Position numbers and translations under genes: made by a program | Source: Rhodocyclaceae bacterium | GTDB taxonomy: Bacteria; Pseudomonadota; Gammaproteobacteria; Burkholderiales; Ga0077523 | Assembly (NCBI GenBank): GCA_020248405.1 | Contig: JADCHQ010000011.1 | Coordinates: forward strand, 1 to 64,000 | Direction: 5' to 3' | DNA: 64,000 nt | The notes under the pieces: model-generated | Database searches by the model: none | The model's input: only the letters and a program-made list of their open reading frames with translations | What the model was told of the DNA's origin: nothing | Shown: positions 2,224-18,924 of the stretch, one piece after another | Layout: each line of letters opens with the position of its first letter | Position numbering within the stretch: position 1 is the stretch's first letter

Positions 2224-3555
2224 ATGAAGCCGCGTCCCGCCGCCGCGCCCACGGTGGGTTTCGTGTCGCTGGGCTGCCCCAAGGCACTGGTGGACTCAGA
2301 GCGCATCCTCACCCAGTTGCGCGCCGAGGGTTACGGCATCGTTCCGCGCTATGAAGAGGCCGACCTGGTGGTGGTGAACACCTGCGGGTTCATCGATTCG
2401 GCCGTGGACGAATCCCTGGGCGCCATCGGCGAGGCGCTGCGCGAGAACGGCAAGGTGGTGGTCACCGGTTGCCTCGGCGCCAAGGGCGAGGTGGTGCGCA
2501 AAGCCCATCCCGCCGTGCTGGCCGTCACCGGCCCCCACGACACCGAGGCCGTGATGACGGCCGTGCATGCACACCTGCCCAAACCCCACGATCCCTTCAC
2601 GGATCTGGTGCCGCCCCAGGGCGTGAAACTCACACCCAGGCACTACGCCTACCTGAAGATCTCCGAGGGCTGCAATCACCGTTGCACCTTCTGCATCATC
2701 CCCTCCATGCGCGGCGATCTGGTGAGCCGCCCCGTGGGAGAAGTGCTGCAGGAAGCCGAGAATCTGGCGCGCGCCGGCGTGCAGGAGTTGCTGGTGATTT
2801 CCCAGGACACCAGCGCCTACGGCGTGGACGTGAAGTACCGCACCGGGTTCTGGAAAGGCCGGCCCGTGAAGACCCGCATGGCCGATCTGGTGCAGGCGCT
2901 GTCCAGCCTCGGCGTGTGGGTGCGGTTGCACTACGTCTACCCCTACCCCCACGTGGACGATGTGGTGCCGCTCATGGCAGGGGGCAAGCTGCTGCCCTAC
3001 CTGGATGTGCCCTTCCAGCACGCCAGCCCGCGCATCCTCAAGCTCATGAAGCGCCCCGCCAGCGCCGAAGACAATCTGGCGCGCATTCGCGCCTGGCGCG
3101 AGATCTGCCCCGACATCACGATCCGCTCCACCTTCATCGCCGGCTTCCCGGGCGAGACCGAGGCGGAGTTCGCCGAACTGCTGGCCTTCCTCGAAGAAGC
3201 GCAACTGGACCGCGTGGGCTGCTTTGCCTACTCCCCCGTGGAGGGCGCTGCCGCCAACGCCCTGCCCGATGCGGTGCCCGCCGAGGAGCGCGAAGACCGC
3301 CGCCGCCGCTTCATGGCGGTGCAGGCACGCATTTCCGCGCGCCGCTTGCAGCGCTTCGTGGGGCGCGAACTGGAAGTGCTGGTGGACAAGGTGGACGGCA
3401 ACGCCGCCGTGGCCCGCGGCCCTGGCGATGCGCCGGAAATCGACGGCCGTGTGCTGGTGGACCGGGCGCGCTGGCTCAAGGCGGGCCAGCTAGCCCGGGT
3501 GCGCATCACGCGCGCCGACGAGCACGACCTGTTCGCCGAGTCGCTGCTGCAGTAG
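2224..3555 (+). CDS. rimO: Ribosomal protein S12 methylthiotransferase RimO
   Basis: This 443-residue radical-SAM enzyme adds a methylthio group to a conserved aspartate of ribosomal protein S12. The N-terminal UPF0004 domain supplies Cys18 ([12 protein letters not shown]), Cys54 (VNTCGF) and Cys83 (TGCLGA) for the auxiliary 4Fe-4S cluster. The radical-SAM cluster motif is Cys150-x3-Cys154-x2-Cys157 ([10 protein letters not shown]). The C-terminal 65 residues are TRAM-like. [12 protein letters not shown] and the [10 protein letters not shown] context favour RimO over the tRNA enzyme MiaB. The ATG at 2224 is where conservation begins; an earlier start would overlap phaR. It lies 31 bases after phaR, so co-transcription is likely. 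Confidence 0.95.
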
Positions 3556-3568
3556 CCATTCGAGCGCC

Positions 3569-3949
3569 GTGAAGCAGCGCCTGCTCGCCTGGGCGAAGCG
3601 CCTCCGGCAAGACACCCTTGCCCTGTGGTTCGCCGCGCGCCACCCGGGCACGCCGCTGGCGCCCAAGCTGCTCGCGCTGTTCCTGGCGGCCTATGCCTTC
3701 AGCCCCATCGACCTTATCCCCGACTTCATCCCGGTGCTGGGCTACCTGGACGAGGCCATCCTGCTGCCGCTGGGCATCGCCCTGTGCCTGCGCATGATTC
3801 CGCCGCCCGTTCTGGAGGCGTGCCGCGCGCAAGCTGCCGGCTGGCTCGAAGCGCGCCGCGGCAAGCCCGCGAGCCGCTGGGGTGCCGCCTTCATCGTAGC
3901 CGTGTGGATCGCCGCGGGCGTGCTGCTGTGGTCGGCCGTGGCCGGCTGA
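3569..3949 (+). CDS. DUF1232 (YkvA-like) membrane protein
   Basis: The 126-residue protein carries the DUF1232 signature LAAYAFSPIDLIPDFIPVLG (residues 41 to 60), followed by GYLDEAILLPLGIAL. The core forms two hydrophobic helices. A final transmembrane segment lies near residues 106 to 125 (FIVAVWIAAGVLLWSAV). The function of the family is not established. It starts with GTG 14 bases after the rimO stop and probably belongs to the same transcript. No catalytic residues can be named. Confidence 0.8.
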   Translation: MKQRLLAWAKRLRQDTLALWFAARHPGTPLAPKLLALFLAAYAFSPIDLIPDFIPVLGYLDEAILLPLGIALCLRMIPPPVLEACRAQAAGWLEARRGKPASRWGAAFIVAVWIAAGVLLWSAVAG

Positions 3950-4013
3950 CCCCGCGGCCTGCACGATGGGCCTACACTTCGGGCCCGAGCACCCGTCCCG
4001 AGAAACGCTTGCC

Positions 4014-5471
4014 ATGGCCGCCCCACTGCACACCCTGCCCGCCCATCGCCTCGCCGCCCTGATCCGCGCCCGCAAGGTGGGCAGCCTTGAGCTGCTGGAC
4101 CACTTCCTCGCGCGCATCGCCTCCTACGACGGCGCCCTCAAGTCGGTGTGCGTGCTCGATACCGATCGCGCCCGCAAGCGTGCCCGGGCTGCCGACCGGG
4201 CGCTGTCAAAGGGCGAGCGGCGCGGCCCGTTGCACGGCCTGCCCATGACGGTGAAGGAGTCCTTCGACGTGGCCGGCCTGCCCACCACCTGGGGCCGCCC
4301 CAACCTGAAGGGCAACGTGCCCGCCACCAACGCCCGCGCCGTGCAGTGCCTGTTGGATGCCGGCGCCGTGATCTTCGGCAAGACCAACGTGCCCGCCCTG
4401 CTGGCCGACTGGCAGACCTTCAACCCGCTGTACGGCACCACGTGCAATCCCTGGGACCCGAGCCGCGGGCCCGGAGGCTCCTCGGGCGGCGCCGCCTCCG
4501 CGCTGGCAGCGGGCCTCACCGGGCTGGAGCTGGGCAGCGACATCGGCGCCTCCATCCGCAACCCGGCCCACTTCTGCGGCGTGTACGGTCACAAGCCCAC
4601 CCGGGGCGTGGCCTCTGCCGAGGGCCAGACGCTGCCGCCCTTCATCACCGACAACGACATCGCCGTGATCGGCCCGCTGGCGCGCAGCGCCCGCGACCTG
4701 GAGATCGCCCTGCAACTCATGGCCGTGCCCGACGCCATCGACGCGCGCGGCGTGCGCATCGCCTTGCCCAGGCCGAAGCCGCGCGCCTGGCGGCAGTGGC
4801 GCGTGGCGGTGATGGACACGGCCGACACCGCGCCAGTGGACGCCGCGGTGCGCGAAGGCATCGGGCGCGTGGCGGGGTTCCTGCGCCGTCGGGGCGCCAA
4901 AGTCAGCCACACCGCCCGCCCCGCCATCGACCGGCACGAGGCCCATCGCGTGTACGTGCTGCTGCTGCGCGCCGCCACCTCTCGCAACCAGTCCGACGCC
5001 GACTTCGCCCGCAACCTGGAGAAGGCAAGGCGCCTGCCCCGCGACGCCACCGGCTACGCCGCCTGGATGCTGCAGGCCAACACCCTGCACCATCGCGAGT
5101 GGCACCAGCTCAACGAAGCGCGCCATCACATGCGACTGGCGTGGGAGGCGTTCTTCCGCGACTGGGACGTGCTGCTGTGCCCGGCCGCCGCCACCACCGC
5201 CTTCCCCCACAACCAGGCCGGCGAGCGCTGGGAGCGCATGGTGATGGTGGACGGCACCCCCCAGCCCTCCACCACGGCACTGTTCTGGGCGGGGTTTTCC
5301 GGCATGGCCGGCCTGCCCTCCACGGTGATCCCAGCCGGGCTGGCGGCCGACGGCCTGCCCACGGGCGTGCAGATCGTGGGGCCGCAGTACGGCGACCTCA
5401 CCACGCTGGCGCTGGCGTGCGCCCTGGAGACGGATTTCGGCGGCTTCCAGCCGCCGCCGGCCTACGCCTGA
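4014..5471 (+). CDS. Amidase-signature family hydrolase
   Basis: The 485-residue enzyme has the Ser-cisSer-Lys machinery of the amidase-signature family: Lys81 in MTVKESFDV, the Gly/Ser-rich GPGGSSGGAAS (residues 153 to 161) supplying the cis-Ser, and Ser180 in GSDIGASIR as likely nucleophile. Such enzymes hydrolyse carboxamides such as indoleacetamide, nicotinamide or aryl amides. No GatB or GatC lies nearby, so it is not the tRNA amidotransferase subunit. The ATG at 4014 is preferred because similarity begins a few residues in; an ATG at 3966 would add 16 unconserved residues. The 3' end overlaps the convergent helicase gene by 10 bases. The substrate cannot be read from sequence. Confidence 0.88.
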   Translation: MAAPLHTLPAHRLAALIRARKVGSLELLDHFLARIASYDGALKSVCVLDTDRARKRARAADRALSKGERRGPLHGLPMTVKESFDVAGLPTTWGRPNLKGNVPATNARAVQCLLDAGAVIFGKTNVPALLADWQTFNPLYGTTCNPWDPSRGPGGSSGGAASALAAGLTGLELGSDIGASIRNPAHFCGVYGHKPTRGVASAEGQTLPPFITDNDIAVIGPLARSARDLEIALQLMAVPDAIDARGVRIALPRPKPRAWRQWRVAVMDTADTAPVDAAVREGIGRVAGFLRRRGAKVSHTARPAIDRHEAHRVYVLLLRAATSRNQSDADFARNLEKARRLPRDATGYAAWMLQANTLHHREWHQLNEARHHMRLAWEAFFRDWDVLLCPAAATTAFPHNQAGERWERMVMVDGTPQPSTTALFWAGFSGMAGLPSTVIPAGLAADGLPTGVQIVGPQYGDLTTLALACALETDFGGFQPPPAYA

Positions 5472-7414: not shown

Positions 7415-7641
7415 GGGGTGCAAGGTCAGCGGCGGGCGGCGCCAGGGCGGGCAGGCTGCGGGGTGCCGGATGGGGATCGACTCACCCGCGAAGCATGGCG
7501 CAGGGCCCGCGCGCGGGCAATACCAAAGGCACGGGCGTTCCGTGGCCAGCCCCCCCTCCCCGCGGGAGCACACGCCTCGGCCCGGCACGGCGCAGGTATG
7601 CTGCCGGTTTCGCCAGTCTGCCCGTGTGCCGGAGCGCCTTC

Positions 7642-8331
7642 ATGAGCACCCCCTCGCTGCCCCTTGCCGGCCACCGCATCCTGCTCACCCAGGCTGGCGA
7701 TTTCATGGGCCCCGCCCTGGCCCGCGTGCTTGCCGGCCAGGGCGCCGAGGTGGTGGCCTCCCTGGAAACCCTCGATGCCCCGGGCGCGGCCGAGGCCGTT
7801 GTGCAGGGCGCCGGCACGCTGCATGCCGTGGTGGCCAACCTGGGCATTCCCGCGCCGGCCACGCCCGCCGACGCGGTGGACGATGCGCAGTGGCGCCACT
7901 GCTTCGCCACCATGGTGGACCCCCTGCCACGCCTGCTGCGGGCGGTGCTGCCGCAGATGCGCGAGCGGGGCGCGGGGCGCTTCCTGGTGATGGGCAGCGC
8001 CTCGGCGCTGCGCGGCATGAAGCGCACTTCCTCCTACAGCGCGGCGCGCGGCGCCCAGCTGGCCTGGGTGCAGGCCGTGGGCGTGGAGCTGGCGCCGCTG
8101 GGCATCCGCGTGAATGCCATTGCCCAGAACTTCGTGGACAACCCCACCTACTTCCCGCCCGCGGTGCAGGCCGACCCCCGCTTCCAGGAGCGCCTGCGGC
8201 GTGAAGTGCCGCTGGGCCGTCTGGTCTCGGCCGAGGAGGATGCCGCCTTCGCCGCCTACCTGCTGTCGGGGCCGGCCGACTGTTTCGCGGGACAGGTGTT
8301 CCCCGTGAGCGGCGGCTGGGCGGTGCGCTGA
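7642..8331 (+). CDS. Probable halohydrin dehalogenase (SDR-derived)
   Basis: The 229-residue protein has the short-chain dehydrogenase fold length but lacks both SDR hallmarks. The glycine-rich NAD(P) motif is replaced by Thr16-x4-Phe21-x-Gly23 (TQAGDFMG). The catalytic Lys is replaced by Arg in Ser119-x12-Tyr132-x3-Arg136 (GSAS...SYSAAR). These two patterns, T-x4-F-x-G and S-x12-Y-x3-R, are the published fingerprints of halohydrin dehalogenases, which convert vicinal halohydrins to epoxides and open epoxides with azide, cyanide or nitrite without a nicotinamide cofactor. The region NFVDNPTYFP (163-172) and the end GQVFPVSGGW also resemble HheC. GGAG lies about seven bases before the ATG. A methyltransferase gene follows after nine bases, so the two are probably co-expressed. 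The alternative is an orphan SDR with a lost cofactor site. Confidence 0.78.
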   Translation: MSTPSLPLAGHRILLTQAGDFMGPALARVLAGQGAEVVASLETLDAPGAAEAVVQGAGTLHAVVANLGIPAPATPADAVDDAQWRHCFATMVDPLPRLLRAVLPQMRERGAGRFLVMGSASALRGMKRTSSYSAARGAQLAWVQAVGVELAPLGIRVNAIAQNFVDNPTYFPPAVQADPRFQERLRREVPLGRLVSAEEDAAFAAYLLSGPADCFAGQVFPVSGGWAVR

Positions 8332-8340
8332 GAACGCGCC

Positions 8341-9177
8341 ATGTCCGGTTTCGTGCTCGATTTCTACGACCGCCTCGCGCCGGAGTACCACCTCATGTTC
8401 GCCGACTGGCGGGCAGAGGTGATGCGCCAGTCGGCGCTGCTCGCCCGCCTGCTGCGCGCCGAGGTGCCCGGCGCCAGTCACGTGCTCGACTGCGCCTGCG
8501 GCATCGGCACCCAGGCCATCGGCCTGGCGCGCGCGGGCTACCAGGTTACCGCCACCGACCTGAGCCCCGGCGCGCTGCAGCGCGCCCTCGAGGAAGCGCA
8601 ACACTTCCAGGTGGACCTGCGGTTCGCCACGGCCGACTTCCGCCGCCTGGAGGACGCGTTGCAGGACCGCTTTCACGTGGTGTGCTGCCTGGACAACGCC
8701 ATCGCGCACCTGCAGGAGGACCACGAGCTGCACGCCGCGTGCGCCTCCATGGCCAGGCGGCTGCACCCCGGCGGCCTGCTGGTGCTGAGCATCCGCGACT
8801 ACGACCGCATCTTCGCGCCCTGCTTCGCCGCCGCAGCCGACCCCGGCCTGCCCGGACTGCCCGGACTGGCCCGCGGCGGCGAGCAATCCCTGCCTGGCGG
8901 CACCCTGCCGCGGGTGTTCGACGGCCCGGACGGGCGGCGCATCGCCTTCCAGGTGTGGGACTGGAGCAAGGACCGCCGCTCCTACGCCGTGCACCAGTAC
9001 TTCGTGCACGGCGACGGGGACGCGCCGCGGGCCACGCACTACTCCTCGCGCTTCCGGGCGCTGCGCCGGGCCGAGCTGGGCGGCGCGTTGCTGGCCGCGG
9101 GGCTGCGCGAGGTGCGCTGGCTCATGCCGGAGCACGTCGGCTTCTACCAGCCCCTGGTGCTCGCACGCGCGCCCTGA
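8341..9177 (+). CDS. Class I SAM-dependent methyltransferase
   Basis: The 278-residue cytosolic enzyme has motif I VLDCACGIGTQ (residues 48 to 58), an acidic end to strand 2 (TATDLS) and a motif IV-like VVCCLDNAIAHL. The layout resembles glycine/sarcosine N-methyltransferases (LDCACGIGTQAIGLA), but the substrate cannot be assigned. A proline/glycine stretch, DPGLPGLPGLARGG, is an unusual low-complexity insert near residue 165. It lies nine bases behind the halohydrin dehalogenase candidate and is probably in its operon. The 3' end is convergent with mscS, 18 bases away. A link to small-molecule methylation alongside the dehalogenase is inference from position only. Confidence 0.8.
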   Translation: MSGFVLDFYDRLAPEYHLMFADWRAEVMRQSALLARLLRAEVPGASHVLDCACGIGTQAIGLARAGYQVTATDLSPGALQRALEEAQHFQVDLRFATADFRRLEDALQDRFHVVCCLDNAIAHLQEDHELHAACASMARRLHPGGLLVLSIRDYDRIFAPCFAAAADPGLPGLPGLARGGEQSLPGGTLPRVFDGPDGRRIAFQVWDWSKDRRSYAVHQYFVHGDGDAPRATHYSSRFRALRRAELGGALLAAGLREVRWLMPEHVGFYQPLVLARAP

Positions 9178-11750: not shown

Positions 11751-12346
11751 ACGCCTCCGAGCCGCAGCGCTGCGCCTGGGCGCAGCAGGCCGGCCCCCTG
11801 GATCGCCAATACCACGACACCGAGTGGGGCGTGCCCGTTCACGATGACCGGACGCTGTTCGAGTACCTGATCCTCGAAGGCGCCCAAGCCGGCCTTTCCT
11901 GGAGCCAGGTGCTGGCGCGACGCGAGGGCTACCGCGCCGCTTTCGCTGGCTTCGATCCAGCCAAGGTGGCGCGCTTCACCGAGGCGCACTGCGCGCGCCT
12001 GTTGCACGACCCGGGCATCATTCGCAACCGCCTCAAGGTGGCCGCTGCGGTGAGCAACGCCCGGGCGTTTCTGGCGCTGCAAGAGGCCCACGGCAGCTTC
12101 GATGCGTGGCTGTGGCGCTTCACCGAGGGACGGCCGCTGCAGAACGCCTGGGCCCACCATCAGCAAGTGCCTGCCAGCACGCCGCTGTCCCAAGGGCTTT
12201 CCAGGGCGCTCACCCGGGCGGGATTCCGCTTCGTGGGCCCCACCATCGTGTATGCCTTCATTCAGGCGGTGGGCATGGTGAACGACCACACCACCGACTG
12301 CTTCCGCCACGAGCCGGTGCGCCGTCTGGGCGCCAGCCCCACCTGA
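11747..12346 (+). CDS. tag: DNA-3-methyladenine glycosylase I (Tag)
   Basis: The 199-residue enzyme excises 3-methyladenine from alkylated DNA. It carries the Tag zinc-snap residues: Cys9 (QRCAWA), His23 (QYHDTEWG) and the C-terminal pair in MVNDHTTDCF. DTEWGVPVHDDRTLFEYLIL and EGAQAGLSWSQVLARREGYR are diagnostic, with the base-binding Glu and Trp in place. Length is close to E. coli Tag (187). It starts at GTG 11747, overlapping the preceding lipoprotein stop by four bases. The frame is open upstream to 10700 without conserved content. Confidence 0.94.
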   Translation: MNASEPQRCAWAQQAGPLDRQYHDTEWGVPVHDDRTLFEYLILEGAQAGLSWSQVLARREGYRAAFAGFDPAKVARFTEAHCARLLHDPGIIRNRLKVAAAVSNARAFLALQEAHGSFDAWLWRFTEGRPLQNAWAHHQQVPASTPLSQGLSRALTRAGFRFVGPTIVYAFIQAVGMVNDHTTDCFRHEPVRRLGASPT

Positions 12347-12458
12347 TGCCCGCCGCCGCGGCGCAAGGCCTGTAGCATTGGCGCCATGGCCCTTGCCGCA
12401 ACCCCCGTTTCCGCTGCCAAACCAGCCCCGCTCACCACCGCAGGCGCACCCCACGGCC

Positions 12459-13457
12459 ATGAATGATCCGCTGCATCCCGCCGCCTCCACTGCCCTCGTT
12501 TCGGTGGTGATTCCGGTCTACAACGAGGCCGATAACCTGACCGACCTGGTGGGGCGCGTGCACGACGCGCTGGCGCCCTCGGGCCGCGGCTTCGAGCTGA
12601 TCTGCGTGGACGACGGCTCCCGCGATGGCTCGGCTGCCATCCTGGAGGCGCTCGCTGCCGCCCGGCCGTGGCTCAAGCCGGTTTACCTGATGCGCAACTA
12701 CGGCCAGTCCACCGCACTGCAGGCGGGCTTCGACGCCGCCGCGGGCGAGTTCGTGGTCACCCTCGATGGCGACCTGCAGAACGACCCGGCCGACGTGCCG
12801 CGCCTGCTGGACCACCTGGACGCCAACCCCGACGTGGACGCCATCTCCGGCTGGCGGCGCGAGCGCCAGGACGCCGCCCTGTCGCGCAAGCTGCCCTCGC
12901 GCCTGGCCAACGGCCTGATCTCGCGGGTCACCGGCGTGAAGCTGCACGACTACGGCTGCGCGCTCAAGGTGTATCGCGCCCGCGTGATCCGCGACCTGCG
13001 CCTGTACGGCGAGCTGCACCGCTTCATCCCCGCGCTGGCTGCCGAGGTGGGGGCGCGCATCGTGGAGATGCCTGTCGCCCACCATGCGCGCACCCGCGGC
13101 GTGTCCAAGTACGGCATCGACCGCACCTTCCGCGTGCTGCTCGACCTGCTGTGGATCAAGTTCATGCTGCGCTTCCTGCACCGCCCCATCCACGCCTTCG
13201 GCGGGCTGGGCCTGACGCTGGGCGCGCTGGGCGGGCTGATCCTCGCCGGCCTCACCGTGGAGAAGATGGCGCTGGGCCACGACATCGGCGGCCGTCCGCT
13301 GCTGCTGCTGGGCGCCCTGCTGGTGCTCATCGGCGTGCAGCTGGTGGCCACCGGCGTTCTGGGCGAGCTGCTCACGCGCATCTGGCACGAGCCCCAGGGC
13401 CGGCCCCAGTACATGACCCGCAGCGCGCCGCGGCCCGCGCCGCGCCGCCCCGGCTGA
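12459..13457 (+). CDS. GT2 polyprenyl-phosphate glycosyltransferase (ArnC/DPM1-like)
   Basis: The 332-residue protein has a cytosolic GT2 domain: VSVVIPVYNEADNL (residues 14-27), DDGSRDGS (51-58) and the metal-binding DGDLQNDP (103-110). Two C-terminal transmembrane helices follow at about 243-265 and 277-300. This is the architecture of ArnC and GtrB enzymes, which load a sugar onto undecaprenyl phosphate at the inner leaflet. It leads a four-gene set with a flippase-like protein, an ArnT-like transferase and a PAP2 phosphatase, whose starts overlap or touch. The sugar is unknown. No arnA, arnB or arnD lies nearby, so aminoarabinose is not implied. Confidence 0.87.
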   Translation: MNDPLHPAASTALVSVVIPVYNEADNLTDLVGRVHDALAPSGRGFELICVDDGSRDGSAAILEALAAARPWLKPVYLMRNYGQSTALQAGFDAAAGEFVVTLDGDLQNDPADVPRLLDHLDANPDVDAISGWRRERQDAALSRKLPSRLANGLISRVTGVKLHDYGCALKVYRARVIRDLRLYGELHRFIPALAAEVGARIVEMPVAHHARTRGVSKYGIDRTFRVLLDLLWIKFMLRFLHRPIHAFGGLGLTLGALGGLILAGLTVEKMALGHDIGGRPLLLLGALLVLIGVQLVATGVLGELLTRIWHEPQGRPQYMTRSAPRPAPRRPG

Positions 13458-14393
13458 GTGACGAAGCTGCTGCTGCGACTGGCGGGCGGCTTCGCCCTGC
13501 TGGCGGCGGTGGTGTGGTTCGTGGGGCCGGAGCGCATCACCGGCGCGCTGCGCCGCGTGGAGCCAGCGGTGTTCGCGGCCGCCCTGGCGCTGGCGGTGGC
13601 TTCCAACGTGACGAGCGCCGCGCGCTGGGCGGCCATTGCCCGCGCCCTCGGGCTGCGCGCGCCCACTGCGCCGCTGGTGCCCATGTATTTCCGCGGCATG
13701 ACCAGCAATACGCTGCTGCCCGGCGCCACCGTCTCGGGCGACCTGCTGCGCAGCGCCGAGCTCTCCCGCCTAGGCAACCCGCTGCTGGAGTCGGCCGCCT
13801 CCGTGGCCTTTGACCGGCTGTCCGGCCTGTGGACCCTGTGTGTGCTGTCCTTCGTGGCCGCCGGCGCCGCGGCCGCCGCCGGCGTGACGCTCTCGGGCGC
13901 CCAGGGCGACCGGGCGGTGCTGGCGGGCTACGGCGCGGCGCTGGGCTTCATCGTGGTGGCGCCCTTCCTGCCCTGGCCCACGGCATGGCTGCGCCGCCTG
14001 CCCTTGGCGGCAGCGGCCAAGCTCTCCGACCTGGCCGACCGGGTGCGCGATCCGGCCACCGGGCTGCGCCGTCGCCTCGCCGCCACCCTGGGCCTGTCGC
14101 TGCTGGTGCAACTGCTCTCGGCGGGCGCGCTGGCGGCCTGCGCCGGATCGCTGGGGCTCGGCGTCGCGCCGCTGGTGATGTTTGCCGCCGCGGCGCCCAT
14201 CTTCGTGATGGCCGCCCTGCCGCTGGGCGTGGCCGGGTTCGGCACCCGCGAGTTGGCGGCCGTGGCGGTGCTGGGCGCGGCGGGCGTGCCGCCCGATCTG
14301 GCCGCCGGCACCGGGCTGCTGTACGGCCTGTGCGGCGTCATCCAAGGCGCGGCGGCCGCGCCGCTGTTCCTGCTACCATCGAAACGTCCATGA
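13458..14393 (+). CDS. UPF0104 / LPG-synthase-TM-like flippase protein
   Basis: The 311-residue polytopic protein has about eight hydrophobic segments and family landmarks: ARWAAIARALGL, MYFRGMTSNTLLPGATVSGD, AFDRLSGL and PLGVAGFGTRELA. The lysylphosphatidylglycerol-synthase membrane-domain fold (UPF0104) includes flippases for lipid-linked substrates. It starts with GTG directly after the previous stop and ends in an ATGA overlap with the ArnT-like gene, so it is tightly coupled. In this setting it may move the glycosylated polyprenyl phosphate across the inner membrane; that role is inferred from context. Confidence 0.78.
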   Translation: MTKLLLRLAGGFALLAAVVWFVGPERITGALRRVEPAVFAAALALAVASNVTSAARWAAIARALGLRAPTAPLVPMYFRGMTSNTLLPGATVSGDLLRSAELSRLGNPLLESAASVAFDRLSGLWTLCVLSFVAAGAAAAAGVTLSGAQGDRAVLAGYGAALGFIVVAPFLPWPTAWLRRLPLAAAAKLSDLADRVRDPATGLRRRLAATLGLSLLVQLLSAGALAACAGSLGLGVAPLVMFAAAAPIFVMAALPLGVAGFGTRELAAVAVLGAAGVPPDLAAGTGLLYGLCGVIQGAAAAPLFLLPSKRP

Positions 14394-15976
14394 GCGCTGT
14401 GCCCACGGCTTCACTTTCCGCGGACCTGCGCCGCAACCCCGGCCTCGCGCTGCTGCTGCTCGCGGGCGTGCTGCTGTCCTTCTTCACCGGCCTGGGCGCC
14501 GTGCCGCTGTTCGACCTGGACGAGGGGGCCTTCGCCGAGGCCACCCGCGAGATGCTCGATCGCGGCGATTACATCTCCACCTTCCTCAACGGCGAGCCCC
14601 GCTACGACAAGCCGGTACTGGTGTACTGGCTGCAGGCGTTGTCGGTGCTGGCCTTCGGCGTGAACGAATTCGCCTTCCGCCTGCCCTCGGCGCTGTGCGC
14701 CACGGGCTGGGTGCTGGTGGTGCTGCTGTTCGTGCGCCGCGTGGCCAGCGCGCGCCCCGCGCTGCTGGCCGCCGGCTTCACGGCCACTGCCGCGGGCATC
14801 ACCGTGATCGGCCGCGCCGCCATTGCCGACGCGCTGCTCAATTTCCTCATCGTCACCGCCATGGCGAGCGCCTACCTGTACCTGCGCGAGGGCCGGCGCG
14901 CCTGGCTGCTGTGCGCCTACATGTCCATGGGCTTCGGCCTGCTGGCCAAGGGCCCCGTGGCGGTGCTGGTACCCCTGGCCACCACCTTCCTCCACTGCCT
15001 GAGCCGGCGCGACCTGAAGACCTGGCTGCGCGCGGTGCTCGACCCGGCGGGTATCGCGCTGATGCTGGCCATCGCCGCGCCCTGGTACGCTGCCCAGTAC
15101 TGGAAGGAGGGCGATGCCTTCGTGCGAGGCTTCCTGTTCAAGCACAACGTAGACCGCTTCCGCGCGCCCATGCACGGCTTCGACGGCAGCCTGTTCTTCT
15201 ACGTGCCCTGGCTGCTGGTGGCCACGCTGCCCTTCCTAACGCCGCTGCTCAACACGGGCCGCGGCCTGCGGCAGATCTGGGCCGATGATCTGCAACGCTT
15301 CTGCCTGCTGTGGTTCGGCTTCGTGTTCCTGTTCTTCTCGGCCTCGGGCACCAAGCTGCCGCACTACGTGTTCTACGGCTACACGGGGCTGTTCATCCTC
15401 ATGGCGCTGCAGGCGCCGCGGCTGCGATCGGGGGTGCTGGCGCTGGTGCCGGCGCTGGGGGTGTTCGCCCTGCTGGGCGCGGTGCCGTGGCTGGTGGAGA
15501 CGTTCTCGCCGCGCCTGGCCGATCCCTACTACCGCGAGGCCCTCGCCGCGGTGCGCCAGGGCCTCGGCGCCGGCTTCGGGAGCTTCACCGTGGCCGCGTG
15601 CGCGGGCGTGGTCGCGCTCATGGCGCTGCGCCGCGTGCCGCTGGACACGCGCCTCATGGCCGCCGGGGTGGCCCAGGCCGCCGCCATGGCGCTGTTCGTG
15701 CTGCCCGCCGCGGGCGAGGCCCAGCAGGCGCCAGTGAAGGAGGCGGCGCTGCTGGCGCGCAGCCACGGCTGGGAGGTGGTGATGTGGGGCCTCAACACGC
15801 CTAGCTTCATGGTCTACTCGGAGCGCCTGGTGCAACGGCGCGACCCGCGCCCCGGCGAGATCGCGCTCGTGCGCATGAAGAAGCTGCGCGAGCAGCCCAG
15901 CGGCGAGGCTGGCTTCGAACTGCTCTACCAGCGCAATGGCATCGCCCTGGTTCGCGTGCCCGGAGCGGCGCGATGA
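14390..15976 (+). CDS. ArnT/PMT-family lipid glycosyltransferase
   Basis: The 528-residue GT-C protein has about twelve transmembrane helices. The first periplasmic loop carries the catalytic motif FDLDEGAFAEATREML (Asp44-Glu45), followed by YDKPVLVYW; this matches ArnT/PMT enzymes that move a sugar from polyprenyl phosphate to lipid A or protein. Later landmarks are FGLLAKGPVAVLVP and KLPHYVFYGYTGLF. It overlaps the flippase-like gene (ATGA) and the downstream PAP2 gene. With the ArnC-like enzyme it forms a complete donor-making and transfer pair. The acceptor is unknown. Confidence 0.88.
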   Translation: MSAVPTASLSADLRRNPGLALLLLAGVLLSFFTGLGAVPLFDLDEGAFAEATREMLDRGDYISTFLNGEPRYDKPVLVYWLQALSVLAFGVNEFAFRLPSALCATGWVLVVLLFVRRVASARPALLAAGFTATAAGITVIGRAAIADALLNFLIVTAMASAYLYLREGRRAWLLCAYMSMGFGLLAKGPVAVLVPLATTFLHCLSRRDLKTWLRAVLDPAGIALMLAIAAPWYAAQYWKEGDAFVRGFLFKHNVDRFRAPMHGFDGSLFFYVPWLLVATLPFLTPLLNTGRGLRQIWADDLQRFCLLWFGFVFLFFSASGTKLPHYVFYGYTGLFILMALQAPRLRSGVLALVPALGVFALLGAVPWLVETFSPRLADPYYREALAAVRQGLGAGFGSFTVAACAGVVALMALRRVPLDTRLMAAGVAQAAAMALFVLPAAGEAQQAPVKEAALLARSHGWEVVMWGLNTPSFMVYSERLVQRRDPRPGEIALVRMKKLREQPSGEAGFELLYQRNGIALVRVPGAAR

Positions 15977-16749
15977 ACCCGCCTGTTGCATGGCGCTCGC
16001 CGAGTGTGTGGGCAGTGCCGGCGGCGGCCCTCGCCGCGGCGCTGCTGCTGGCACTCACCGGCGCCAATCGCGCCGCTTTCTCGGCCATCAACTCGTGGAG
16101 CCATCTCACGGGGCCGTTGCCCTGGGCTTTCGTCACGGTGCTGGGCGACACGGCGGTGGCGTTGGCACTGTTCACGCCCTTCGTCCTGCGGCGGCCCGCC
16201 CTGGTCTGGGCACTGGCCCTCGGCGCGCTGCTGGCCGCGGCCTTCGTGCACGGCATCAAGCCGCTGGCCGATCTGCCGCGTCCGCCCTCGGTGATGGCGG
16301 CCGGCGCCATCACGGTGATCGGCCCGGCCTACAAGGCCCATTCCTTTCCGTCTGGCCACACCACCACCATCTTCGTGGCGGCCGCGCTGCTCTGGCTGCA
16401 CTTTCCCTCGCCCTGGATCCGCGCGGCGGCGCTTGGCACAGCGGTGCTGGTGGGCCTGTCCCGCGCCGTGGTGGGCGTGCACTGGCCGGTGGACATCGCC
16501 GCGGGAGCCGCGGGCGGCTGGTGCTGCGCGGTAGCGGGCACGGCCCTGGCGTGTCGCTTTCCTGCTGGAACCCGCGCGCCTGTGCAGGCAGTGCTGGCAC
16601 TGGCGGGCAGCGGCTGCGCCGTGGCGCTGCTGGCGGGCTTGAAGACGGGCTATCCCCAGGCGCTGCAACTGCAATATGCCGTGGGCGCGGCGGCGTTGGG
16701 CGCGCTGGCGGTGGCGGTGGTGGAGCGCGCCACGGGTGGTGTGCGCTGA
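15973..16749 (+). CDS. PAP2-family membrane phosphatase
   Basis: The 258-residue protein has six or seven transmembrane segments and all three PAP2 signature motifs: Lys96-x6-Arg103-Pro104 (KPLADLPRPP), PSGH at 126-129 with catalytic His129, and Ser163-Arg164-x5-His170 (SRAVVGVH). Such enzymes dephosphorylate undecaprenyl pyrophosphate, phosphatidate or lipid A. It overlaps the ArnT-like gene by four bases (ATGA) and closes the glycan module, where recycling of the polyprenyl carrier would be a sensible role. Confidence 0.88.
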   Translation: MNPPVAWRSPSVWAVPAAALAAALLLALTGANRAAFSAINSWSHLTGPLPWAFVTVLGDTAVALALFTPFVLRRPALVWALALGALLAAAFVHGIKPLADLPRPPSVMAAGAITVIGPAYKAHSFPSGHTTTIFVAAALLWLHFPSPWIRAAALGTAVLVGLSRAVVGVHWPVDIAAGAAGGWCCAVAGTALACRFPAGTRAPVQAVLALAGSGCAVALLAGLKTGYPQALQLQYAVGAAALGALAVAVVERATGGVR

Positions 16750-16772
16750 CGGGCCGCCACGCCGCACTCGCC

Positions 16773-17414
16773 ATGGCCCAGGACGCTTCCCGCCCCGATT
16801 TCTGGGAAACCCGCTACCGCGACCGCGTCACCCCCTGGGATGCGGGTGGCGCGCCAGAGCGCTTCGTGGACTGGGCGCGCGGGCTGCCGCGCGGCAGCCG
16901 CGTGCTGGTGCCCGGCTGCGGCTCGGCCCATGAGGTGAGGGTGCTGGCGGAAGGCGGCGCCCACGTGCTTGCCATCGACTTCAGCACCGCGGCCGTGGCT
17001 CTGGCCCGCGAGCGCCTTGGTAGCCTGGCCCACCGGGTGGTGGAGGCGGATTTCTTCCACTTCGACGCCGGCGAGGGCTTCGATGCGGTGTACGAGCGGG
17101 CTTTCCTGTGCGCCTTGCCGCGCCACCTCTGGCCTGCCTACGGGCAGCGCATGGCCGAGGTGCTGCAACCCGGTGGCCAGTTGAGCGGCTATTTCTTTTT
17201 CGACCACAACACCCGCGGCCCGCCCTTCGGCACCTCGGAGCAGACCCTGTACACGCTGCTGGGCAGCGCCTTCAGCCTTGAACGGGACGAAGCCGTCGCC
17301 GGGTCGCTGCCCATGTTCGAGGGCAAGGAACGCTGGCAGCAGTGGCGGCGCCGCGACACGGACGCTGCGCGCCCATCCGGCCCCGCAACGCTGCATGGGA
17401 TGTCCCGCCGCTAA
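16773..17414 (+). CDS. TPMT-family SAM methyltransferase
   Basis: The 213-residue enzyme resembles the thiopurine S-methyltransferase superfamily: PDFWETRYRDRVTPWDAGG at the N-terminus, motif I VLVPGCGSAHEV (residues 45-56), LAIDFSTAAV and VYERAFLCALP. Bacterial members methylate thiols, selenium, tellurium or small thiocyanate-like anions; the substrate is not readable here. It starts at ATG 16773, 24 bases after the PAP2 gene, and its stop overlaps the stop of the convergent DUF2238 gene by three bases. Confidence 0.85.
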   Translation: MAQDASRPDFWETRYRDRVTPWDAGGAPERFVDWARGLPRGSRVLVPGCGSAHEVRVLAEGGAHVLAIDFSTAAVALARERLGSLAHRVVEADFFHFDAGEGFDAVYERAFLCALPRHLWPAYGQRMAEVLQPGGQLSGYFFFDHNTRGPPFGTSEQTLYTLLGSAFSLERDEAVAGSLPMFEGKERWQQWRRRDTDAARPSGPATLHGMSRR

Positions 17415-18040
17415 CGGCCAAGGCCTCGCACCGCCAATTGCCGGTCGTGCAGACCGCCCAGCAGCAGCTGGCTTGCCAGTGCTCCCACCAGCGCCAGGAA
17501 CATGTCCCACTGGGTGTCCCAGACATCGCCCTGGGTGGCGAGAAACGCCACCGCGGCCTCGCCCGTGCCCACCGCCACCCACCATTCGATCAGTTCGTAG
17601 AAGGCGCTGATGGCGAGGCAGATGCAGGTCACGATGAGGGCCAGCCAGCCCCGCCCGGACACCACGCGGTTGCGCAGCAGGATCTCGCGCGCCACCAGCG
17701 CGGGCACGAAGCCCTGCATGATGTGCCCCAGCCGGTCGTAGTGATTGCGGGCCAGGCCCAGGGTGTCGCGCAGCCAGTTGAACAGCGGCATTTCGGCGTA
17801 GGTGTAATGCCCGCCCACCATGAGCACGATGGCGTGCAGCAGCACCAGCACCAGCACCAGCGGCGTGAGCCGCGCGCGGGGGAACAGCGCCGCCAGCACC
17901 AATGCGGCGGCCAGGGCGGGCGCCGACTCGAGAAACCAGATGAAGCCATCCCGGGGGTGCCACGCCGACCAGGCCAGCACCAGGGAAAACACGGCGAGCA
18001 CGGCCAGGTGCAGGCGGCGCTCGGCCGCGGTGGGTCTCAC
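17411..18040 (-). CDS. DUF2238 (YjdF-like) membrane protein
   Basis: The 209-residue integral membrane protein has about six helices and the DUF2238 hallmarks GGHYTYAEMPLFNWLRD, NHYDRLGHIMQGFVPAL, ISAFYELIEWW and GDVWDTQWDMFLALVGA. Function is unknown. I chose GTG 18040 because it overlaps the upstream stop in a GTGA junction and precedes the first helix. The frame is open farther upstream to 18103, inside the preceding gene. It is the last gene of a minus-strand run that begins near 22830. Confidence 0.85.
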   Translation of the reverse strand: MRPTAAERRLHLAVLAVFSLVLAWSAWHPRDGFIWFLESAPALAAALVLAALFPRARLTPLVLVLVLLHAIVLMVGGHYTYAEMPLFNWLRDTLGLARNHYDRLGHIMQGFVPALVAREILLRNRVVSGRGWLALIVTCICLAISAFYELIEWWVAVGTGEAAVAFLATQGDVWDTQWDMFLALVGALASQLLLGGLHDRQLAVRGLGR

Positions 18041-18924
18041 TGCAACGCGTCCACTTTCAGATACCAGCGGCGCGTCTGGGTGGCGGCATCGCGGCTGCGC
18101 CAAGCACTGCCCTCCTCACCGCGCAGGAGTTCGCGGTCCACGCCGCCCAGGTCGATCCACTCGCCCAGCCGCCCGGTCACCACGGTGTCGAGGCGCCGCA
18201 CGTCCACGGCGCCGGGCGGCGCCAAGCCTTCGCGGGTGGCCGGATCGCGCGCGGCGAACTGGTCGCCGCTGGCGCTGATCTCCACCGTCACTTCATCGCC
18301 GCGGGTGCGCGGCCGCACGTGGAAGCCCGCCAGCACACCCACGTAGCGGGTCGACTCGATGACCCGGGTTCCGCCAGGGCCCACCACCGTCTGGCGGGTG
18401 GGCAGCGGTGTGCTGGCGCCTGTAGCCACGAAGGCGCTGTTGCCCTCGAGCACCTGCACGCTTCGTCCAGCGCGCTCGGCGGCGGCCGACTGGCTGCCAT
18501 AGACCCGCGCCTCGATCGCCTGCGCGCGAGCGGCCTCAGCCGTCCGCGGGCTGCCGGGCTCGCCGGGCAGCATGACTGCGGCGTCACTGCCGCCCACGGT
18601 GCCGCGCAACCCGGCGCCTGAACGGCCGCGCACCAGATCGGCATCCTGGCTCACGGTCACCAGCAGACGTCGCGGCCGTTTGTCCACCAGGGCCAGCACC
18701 TTTCTCACCTCGGCCAGTTGGCGCGGGGTGGCGCGGATGACCAGCTGGTTACCCAGCGCACTCACTGAGCCTTCCGGCTCCACCAGCGGCTGCAGCACGG
18801 TCAGCACTTCGGCGGCCTTGCGGTAGGCCAAGTCCACCACCTCGATCACCAAACCCTGGGGCCGCGCTGGCAGCGGCGCCGCCAGCACCACCGCCAGCAG
18901 CAGCCAGGCCAGTGCTGCGCGCAT
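18037..18924 (-). CDS. Exported protein with a secretin N-domain
   Basis: The 295-residue protein starts with a signal peptide (MRAALAWLLLAVVLAAPLPA). A secretin N1-like domain follows at about 25-95: VIEVVDLAYRKAAEVLTVL, NQLVIRATPRQLAEVRKVL and PRRLLVTVSQDA. The rest (VSQDADLVRG, then ARVYGS... and EVTVEISASGDQF) resembles the periplasmic approach to a secretin barrel, but the membrane-spanning secretin core is absent. It stands alone, with no pilus or type II secretion genes within about 5 kb. Its stop overlaps the DUF2238 start (GTGA), and mtfA lies nine bases upstream. Function is unknown. Confidence 0.7.
   Translation of the reverse strand: MRAALAWLLLAVVLAAPLPARPQGLVIEVVDLAYRKAAEVLTVLQPLVEPEGSVSALGNQLVIRATPRQLAEVRKVLALVDKRPRRLLVTVSQDADLVRGRSGAGLRGTVGGSDAAVMLPGEPGSPRTAEAARAQAIEARVYGSQSAAAERAGRSVQVLEGNSAFVATGASTPLPTRQTVVGPGGTRVIESTRYVGVLAGFHVRPRTRGDEVTVEISASGDQFAARDPATREGLAPPGAVDVRRLDTVVTGRLGEWIDLGGVDRELLRGEEGSAWRSRDAATQTRRWYLKVDALQ

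Follow-up and report, generated by a model that had tools for sequence, protein, structure and literature searches.

The replacement of a lipid A phosphate by a uronic acid has been described for the RgtE-LpxE-RgtF system of Mesorhizobium, Oligotropha and other bacteria, which yields lipid A bearing galacturonic acid (GalA) in (1,1) linkage. The rgtE, rgtF and lpxE genes are clustered in Mesorhizobium loti (PMC5644692), and in Oligotropha they carry consecutive locus tags, with GalA present at C-1 and C-4' and that at C-1 demonstrated chemically (PMC7663294). The action of LpxE is required before that of RgtF (PMC7795004). In Aquifex pyrophilus, both lipid A phosphates are replaced by GalA (PMC6581854). 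Judged by analogy, the Rgt pathway is the nearest described system to a four-gene cluster of a Rhodocyclaceae bacterium (GenBank assembly GCA_020248405.1, 3.7 Mb in 46 contigs), found in positions 1 to 64,000 of contig JADCHQ010000011.1; this whole stretch of 64,000 nucleotides is referred to as the window. The quartet comprises the following genes:

12459-13457, + strand: GT2, a polyprenyl-phosphate sugar synthase, ArnC/RgtE-like (332 aa; PF00535)
13458-14393, + strand: FLIP, a UPF0104 / LPG_synthase_TM flippase-like protein (311 aa; PF03706, TIGR00374)
14390-15976, + strand: GT39 (GT-C), a polyprenyl-phosphate-sugar:acceptor transferase, ArnT-like but not ArnT (528 aa; PF13231/PF02366)
15973-16749, + strand: PAP2, a phosphatase of the Aquifex LpxE type, predicted to act on lipid A (258 aa; PF01569)

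An earlier note, made from the DNA letters alone, had proposed an ArnC-like synthase, a UPF0104 flippase-like protein, an ArnT-like transferase and a PAP2 phosphatase joined by zero-gap or four-base junctions. All four open reading frames (ORFs) are present at these coordinates and Pfam and NCBIfam agree with their identities, the gaps read off the sequence being 0, -4 and -4 bases. The TGA stop of GT2 (13455-13457) is directly followed by the GTG start of FLIP at 13458, the FLIP stop (14391-14393) and the GT39 ATG at 14390 share a four-base overlap, and so do the GT39 stop (15974-15976) and the PAP2 ATG at 15973. The quartet is tentatively interpreted here as a lipid A modification operon that swaps a phosphate, likely the one at C-1, for a sugar, likely one of the hexuronic acids galacturonate and glucuronate. 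As to its activity, sugar and acceptor, we infer the following pathway. GT2, judging from its family, would use the UDP-sugar to charge polyprenyl phosphate at the cytoplasmic face, and the UPF0104 protein, judging from its fold, would flip the polyprenyl-phosphate-sugar to the periplasmic face. There, PAP2 would strip one phosphate from lipid A to create the acceptor, as suggested by its resemblance to LpxE and by the LpxF-like partners described below, and GT39 would move the sugar to the freed position with release of undecaprenyl phosphate (Und-P). The acceptor is probably lipid A or lipopolysaccharide. The earlier note's proposal that such a set could serve to synthesise a lipid-linked sugar, flip it and transfer it is supported, the quartet being a conserved unit of fitting families.

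The window shares with the Rgt system a GT2 donor synthase beside a GT-C polyprenyl-phosphate-sugar transferase and a PAP2 or lipid A phosphatase, in an often clustered arrangement, and the replacement of a lipid A phosphate by a uronic acid is what is predicted for the quartet. It differs in having an additional UPF0104 gene between synthase and transferase, a PAP2 protein of the Aquifex LpxE type and a host that is probably a betaproteobacterium, its named relatives being metagenome assemblies of Betaproteobacteria.

The genes, their order and conservation, their fold matches and their partnerships are direct observations. GT39 was present in 10 of 11 other genomes of the genus, the one lacking it being 64% complete, and in all ten loci (L004-L013) the quartet was complete, with its gene order unchanged. 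Five loci of other families in the order (L014-L018) showed fuller or looser sets, tblastn detecting PAP2 in 4/5, GT2 in 4/5 and FLIP in 2/5, and over all 15 loci together PAP2 occurred in 14, GT2 in 14 and FLIP in 12. None of 14 control loci (L019-L032), holding GT39 genes of about 30% identity in other families within equally short flanks of about 1.5 kb, contained GT2, FLIP or PAP2. Since all ten same-genus loci keep the grouping and none of the control loci shows it, the quartet reflects more than chance. Conservation across genomes, the check suggested by the earlier note, was thus found, with looser forms in Gammaproteobacteria and Campylobacterota. Among the best 80 of 492 relatives, which make up the loci from named genomes discussed below, carriers include Sulfuricella, Thiobacillus and Parasulfuritortus in the Betaproteobacteria, Ectothiorhodospira, Thioalkalivibrio and Competibacteraceae in the Gammaproteobacteria, Hydrogenimonas, Sulfuricurvum and Sulfurospirillum in the Campylobacterota, and single loci in other phyla. 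Among the cultured carriers, Sulfuricella sp. T08 has the quartet, Parasulfuritortus cantonensis has two PAP2 and two transferase genes, and Ectothiorhodospira species have a GT39 with GT2 and FLIP close by. For 39 of the 80 loci at least 3.5 kb was available on both sides; of these, 33 have at least one partner and 16 the complete trio, and taken singly PAP2 is nearby in 27, a FLIP-type protein in 26 and GT2 in 25. The family is sparse in the phylum as a whole: 54 of 299 sampled genomes pass E 1e-60, and only four, the bacterium's own included, exceed 350 bits. The remaining 50 matches (205-283 bits), nearly all from one family, were not counted as the same module.

The evidence on the phosphatase comes from sequence, profile and predicted structure. 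PAP2 matches PF01569 (E 2.8e-21), and its catalytic columns are invariant, K96, R103-P104, P126-S-G-H129, R164, H170 and D174 being identical in all 38 aligned proteins. Its best solved match is the LpxE of Aquifex aeolicus (Aq_1706, 6ebu), both in a single-sequence search (2.5e-10; runner-up 3e-4) and in a profile search (E 2.7e-32; runner-up 2.2e-12). The AlphaFold model (mean confidence score, pLDDT, 95.9) superposes on 6ebu with a TM score of 0.87 by target length and a root-mean-square deviation of 1.6 in Foldseek, the next match reaching 0.60, and VIA-align gives Z values of 21.7 for 6ebu, 18.7 for Bacillus PgpB and 15.2 for E. coli PgpB. 6ebu therefore tops the sequence, profile, Foldseek and VIA-align lists, and on the modelled fold and catalytic residues PAP2 is closest to a proven LpxE. 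The identity is 27-28%, and the window protein has 258 residues against about 170-180 in Aquifex LpxE, with extra C-terminal helices. Functionally known LpxE orthologues are themselves very divergent, those of Aquifex and Francisella sharing 13.8% (PMC6581854). The bacterium's genome encodes two PAP2 proteins. A viral structure library gave nothing at E <= 0.001 with the PAP2 model.

GT39 matches PF13231 (E 1.4e-15) and PF02366 (E 1.5e-15), keeps the conserved DLDEG and KP motifs and matches the solved ArnT 5ezm with E 3e-22. Its nearest NCBIfam model is ArnT, at 135.9 bits and below the cut-off of 567. A maximum-likelihood tree of 113 rows, built by a quick method and with several long branches, joins E. 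coli ArnT, the ArnT of the bacterium itself and the ArnT-clade neighbours in one group (9 rows, support 96) and places the family of the window GT39 outside it. A second transferase type, GT39b (18 rows, support 95), stands apart from both. Two rows labelled ArnT by score (L120_5916 and L091_2742) group with the window family, making two label changes rather than one. On its sequence, the window GT39 is thus classed as an ArnT-like transferase that is not ArnT.

The arn operon (ArnBCADTEF) resembles the quartet in having an ArnC-like GT2, an ArnT-like transferase and a flippase for a polyprenyl-phosphate-sugar; the quartet differs by a UPF0104 protein in place of ArnE/F, an added PAP2 and no sugar-synthesis genes. 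The absence of the latter, pointed out in the earlier note, is correct for the window and incorrect for the genome, which carries a seemingly complete arn operon on a different contig (C45:70000-88000, locus L121). This operon has NCBIfam matches to ArnT, ArnF/ArnE, ArnB, ArnC, a formyltransferase, a UDP-4-keto-pentose synthase and ArnD, the formyltransferase and the synthase scoring above cut-off and the others being best matches below theirs. Its ArnA is split into two genes, one for the formyltransferase and one for the decarboxylase, and ArnF/ArnE is matched by a single SMR protein. By the NCBIfam ArnC and ArnT cut-offs and the ArnT clade, neither GT2 nor GT39 of the window belongs to arn; the ArnC and ArnT of the C45 operon also fall below the cut-offs (344.3 and 250.5 bits), although they score higher than the quartet proteins. 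Because its GT39 lies outside the ArnT clade, the quartet is a system parallel to and apart from arn. Both kinds of genes may be found together: in Sulfuricella-type loci (L045, L046, L048, L087, L104) an ArnT-clade GT39 directly follows the quartet, and L094 and L098 have one upstream in divergent orientation, placing the two systems side by side. Among plasmid records, none reaches 80% coverage of the window GT39; for GT2, 115 of 538 do, all below 60% identity; the GT39 matches on Azospirillum plasmids belong to ordinary GT2-GT39 pairs without PAP2.

An indication of the position modified comes from the company kept by GT39b. At least two PAP2 genes were found in 14 of 20 loci with GT39b and in 3 of 60 without it (p 1.3e-8), an association that persisted when 33 groups of related loci were counted instead (6/10 versus 2/23, p 0.004). 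Eight of ten tested second PAP2 proteins or domains match NCBIfam LpxF (E 1.4e-26 to 1e-48; 94-166 bits, all below the cut-off of 400). LpxF-like PAP2 occurs in 12 of the 80 loci, as detected by a dedicated hidden Markov model (HMM) and in one inspected frame (L077), and GT39b accompanies it in 10 of these 12 against 10 of the other 68 (p 5.6e-6, uncorrected for kinship). In L077, from one metagenome contig, a single open frame of 547 residues (7467-9107, - strand) fuses an LpxF-like and a window-type PAP2 domain and adjoins both transferase types. These data suggest that each transferase is paired with a phosphatase of its own, GT39 with the window-type PAP2 and GT39b with the LpxF-type. LpxE removes the 1-phosphate and LpxF the 4'-phosphate, so that the site of the window pair would be C-1, which, given lipid A as acceptor, appears a reasonably better candidate than C-4'. 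A search for LpxF in the bacterium's genome returned no match and carries little weight, since the positive control likewise gave none. PAP2-GT2 fusions were observed in Competibacteraceae (L074:4195-5901, L082:9160-11025, L090:5443-7293).

GT2 matches PF00535 (E 2.5e-30) and the solved ArnC 9hwj (E 8.7e-57). Its nearest NCBIfam model is ArnC, at 210.7 bits and below the cut-off of 529; it is 38% identical to E. coli ArnC and 48.5% identical to a Sinorhizobium meliloti GT2 that adjoins a flippase-like gene and a GT39 gene. FLIP belongs to UPF0104/LPG_synthase_TM by family models (PF03706 E 1.3e-32; TIGR00374 56.5 bits, above the cut-off of 43.2) and by an MprF-like fold, the top six PDB matches of its AlphaFold model (pLDDT 89.2) all being MprF. 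On this modelled fold it is a candidate flippase of a lipid-linked sugar. DedA/VTT proteins lie directly upstream of GT2 in L107, L109, L110 and L112, none of which has a UPF0104 protein. DedA-like VTT domains (five members) are the second commonest Pfam family among 136 neighbour ORFs, scanned out of 297 candidates with the exclusion of same-genus and near-duplicate loci, of ORFs more than 2.6 kb away and of the longest ORFs. The DedA family comprises Und-P flippases (PMC12826051), and its position before GT2 in these four loci fits a common function in the movement of polyprenyl lipids. Fourteen of the 80 loci (L041, L043, L051, L052, L055-L058, L074, L082, L085, L089, L090, L093) have a DUF3108 protein close to the flippase-like gene or to GT39, and in the Campylobacterales locus L103 a FAD-dependent oxidoreductase (3482-4471, +) is placed between GT39 and GT2.

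The sugar is approached through genes found inside some of the clusters. A UDP-glucose dehydrogenase is present in L063, L070, L071 and L085, and a UDP-sugar epimerase in L083 and L085. The Hydrogenimonas-type loci L063 and L070 have, on one strand, GT39b, UDP-glucose dehydrogenase, GT39, GT2 and FLIP in this order, and L071, of the same type, terminates inside GT2. In Sulfuricurvum (L083) the epimerase lies between two PAP2 genes, and in Sedimenticola (L085) epimerase and dehydrogenase lead into GT2 and FLIP. The cluster epimerases resemble, among others, a UDP-glucuronate 4-epimerase of Bacillus (6zl6); the entry at the head of the PDB list is a different one, 5u4q, a dTDP-glucose 4,6-dehydratase. 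The bacterium under study has a UDP-glucose dehydrogenase (56% identical) and a UDP-sugar epimerase that shares 46% identity with the L083 enzyme and whose specificity was judged from a sequence motif only. Of the 123 Pfam families in the 136 neighbour ORFs, the 25 most frequent include no further nucleotide-sugar family and no deacetylase. The cluster genes suggest UDP-glucuronic acid (UDP-GlcA) or UDP-galacturonic acid as the donor, and a hexuronic acid, perhaps galacturonate, is on balance slightly favoured as the transferred sugar. The expectation of the earlier note that sugar and acceptor may be new is thereby weakened, as the context points to known chemistry, a hexuronic acid on lipid A. 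Ectothiorhodospira, one of the carriers, reportedly has a phosphate-poor lipid A containing uronic acid according to old chemical work, which was not used as evidence here.

Several observations weigh against the replacement of a lipid A phosphate by a hexuronic acid. Only five of the 80 clusters contain sugar genes, three of these five belonging to a single lineage, and the window has none; moreover, the dehydrogenase and the epimerase also serve 4-amino-4-deoxy-L-arabinose (Ara4N) and other polysaccharides. GT2, FLIP and PAP2 are all missing from six of the 39 loci with long flanks. Two of the ten second PAP2 proteins, both from Competibacteraceae, are not LpxF-like, and L105 and L106 have an LpxF-like PAP2 with no GT39b in the stretch covered. 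NCBIfam LpxE (PRK09597) gave no match to the window PAP2 at 1e-5 and touches one of 38 members (7.3e-6), the nearest NCBIfam model for all 38 window-type proteins being, weakly, the undecaprenyl pyrophosphate (Und-PP) phosphatase SepP (best E 1.2e-15). In addition, Aquifex LpxE dephosphorylates lipid A, the C55 polyprenyl pyrophosphate C55-PP and phosphatidylglycerol phosphate (PMC6581854), and because of this breadth the resemblance to it leaves the substrate of PAP2 undecided.

The last two points would suit an unlikely alternative, in which the quartet is a self-contained lipid-linked sugar module acting on core, O-antigen, another glycan or a protein, and PAP2 only renews the carrier by converting Und-PP to Und-P. 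Recycling by PAP2 may still be conceived, since LpxE enzymes also act on C55-PP (PMC6581854), and the three PAP2-GT2 fusions of Competibacteraceae would also fit carrier supply, as would the DedA-family proteins before GT2 in the four FLIP-less loci (PMC12826051). However, transfer from a polyprenyl-monophosphate donor releases Und-P and not Und-PP, as stated for L-Ara4N, and because comparable pathways release Und-P no carrier phosphatase is needed in the cycle (PMC12826051). The genome has one BacA, and carrier renewal leaves the LpxF-like partners and the fused LpxF-like/window-type frame unexplained. The role of recycler given to PAP2 in the earlier note is accordingly poorly supported, its model being most like Aquifex LpxE, and PAP2 seems rather to create the acceptor.

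Glycosylation of a protein or of a phospholipid such as phosphatidylglycerol is improbable. It would agree with the PMT-type Pfam domain of GT39 and with the UPF0104 protein predicted to flip glucosaminyl-phosphatidylglycerol in Pseudomonas, as in the GpgSDF and HexSDF glycolipid loci (PMC12713373); however, these loci have a GT4 synthase and a deacetylase and neither GT39 nor PAP2, and such an acceptor agrees neither with LpxF-like partners nor with an ArnT-like transferase. Equally improbable is the addition of an amino sugar, glucosamine or galactosamine, onto a retained lipid A phosphate, in the manner of Lgm or FlmK. The Bordetella lgm locus does have four genes with an ArnT-like transferase and does modify a lipid A phosphate (PMC4993483, PMC11401268), but there glucosamine is added onto the phosphate, and the LpxF-like phosphatases adjacent in related loci favour phosphate removal. 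The 25 commonest neighbour families include no deacetylase. The Lgm/NaxD deacetylase is YdjC-like, and a search for YdjC (PF04794) in the bacterium's genome gave no match, with a positive E. coli control; the absence of YdjC, together with the LpxF-like partners, led to this alternative being dropped. Finally, a second Ara4N route, with paralogous ArnC and ArnT fed by the arn operon elsewhere, is very improbable, since despite the ArnC-like GT2, the ArnT-like GT39, the use of UDP-GlcA for Ara4N as well and the ArnT-clade GT39 with ArnC-like GT2 directly after the quartet in Sulfuricella-type loci, the window GT39 lies outside the clade of E. coli and own ArnT in the quick tree, both enzymes score far below the ArnC and ArnT cut-offs (as do, less markedly, those of the C45 operon), and that operon has its own ArnC, ArnT and ArnE/F.

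If phosphate-for-uronate replacement is retained as the preferred interpretation, the quartet could speculatively, and with considerable doubt, be extended to a widespread and as yet undescribed family of lipid A remodelling systems, common in sulfur-oxidisers and other environmental members of the Beta- and Gammaproteobacteria and Campylobacterota. Each phosphate would have its own phosphatase-transferase pair, LpxE-type with GT39 for C-1 and LpxF-type with GT39b for C-4', sharing a uronic-acid donor synthase and a UPF0104 protein. The bacterium studied here would possess the C-1 pair only, with uronate at C-1, and arn could decorate the C-4' phosphate. In the open-licence literature, which leaves most subscription journals outside and is weak evidence of novelty, no account of the module in these three groups and no UPF0104 flippase for a uronic-acid donor was found. 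If such a family exists, its UPF0104 protein would be a candidate flippase for a polyprenyl-phosphate uronic acid and the first to be named, none being given in the excerpts consulted. Lipid A lacking one or both of its phosphates, which the sources seen describe from only a few groups (Aquifex, Caulobacter, rhizobia and relatives), would become predictable from DNA in many environmental members of the three groups, the number of pairs in a genome indicating which phosphates are replaced. Each swap would exchange a surface phosphate for a carboxylate, altering metal binding and peptide sensitivity, with a predicted mass shift of +96.07 Da per site (176.03 - 79.97).

Regarding the remaining sequence features, Rfam (gathering thresholds) and tRNA scans of the window gave no matches, and no promoter-like site was detected in 12200-17500. 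The same interval holds six terminator-like sites against a mean of 2.2 in shuffled sequences, most of them intragenic, and these were not used. Three stretches of viral contigs matched the search pattern, none of which encodes a relative. A short ORF at 18037-18924 (-) has a Secretin_N domain and a weak Secretin match, with no obvious secretion cluster around it. Directly downstream of the quartet, a TPMT-family methyltransferase gene (16767-17414, +) starts 17 bases past PAP2 on the same strand, and a TPMT-family HMM match lies near the quartet in five of the eight closest named loci (L033-L040) and in none of the 72 others.

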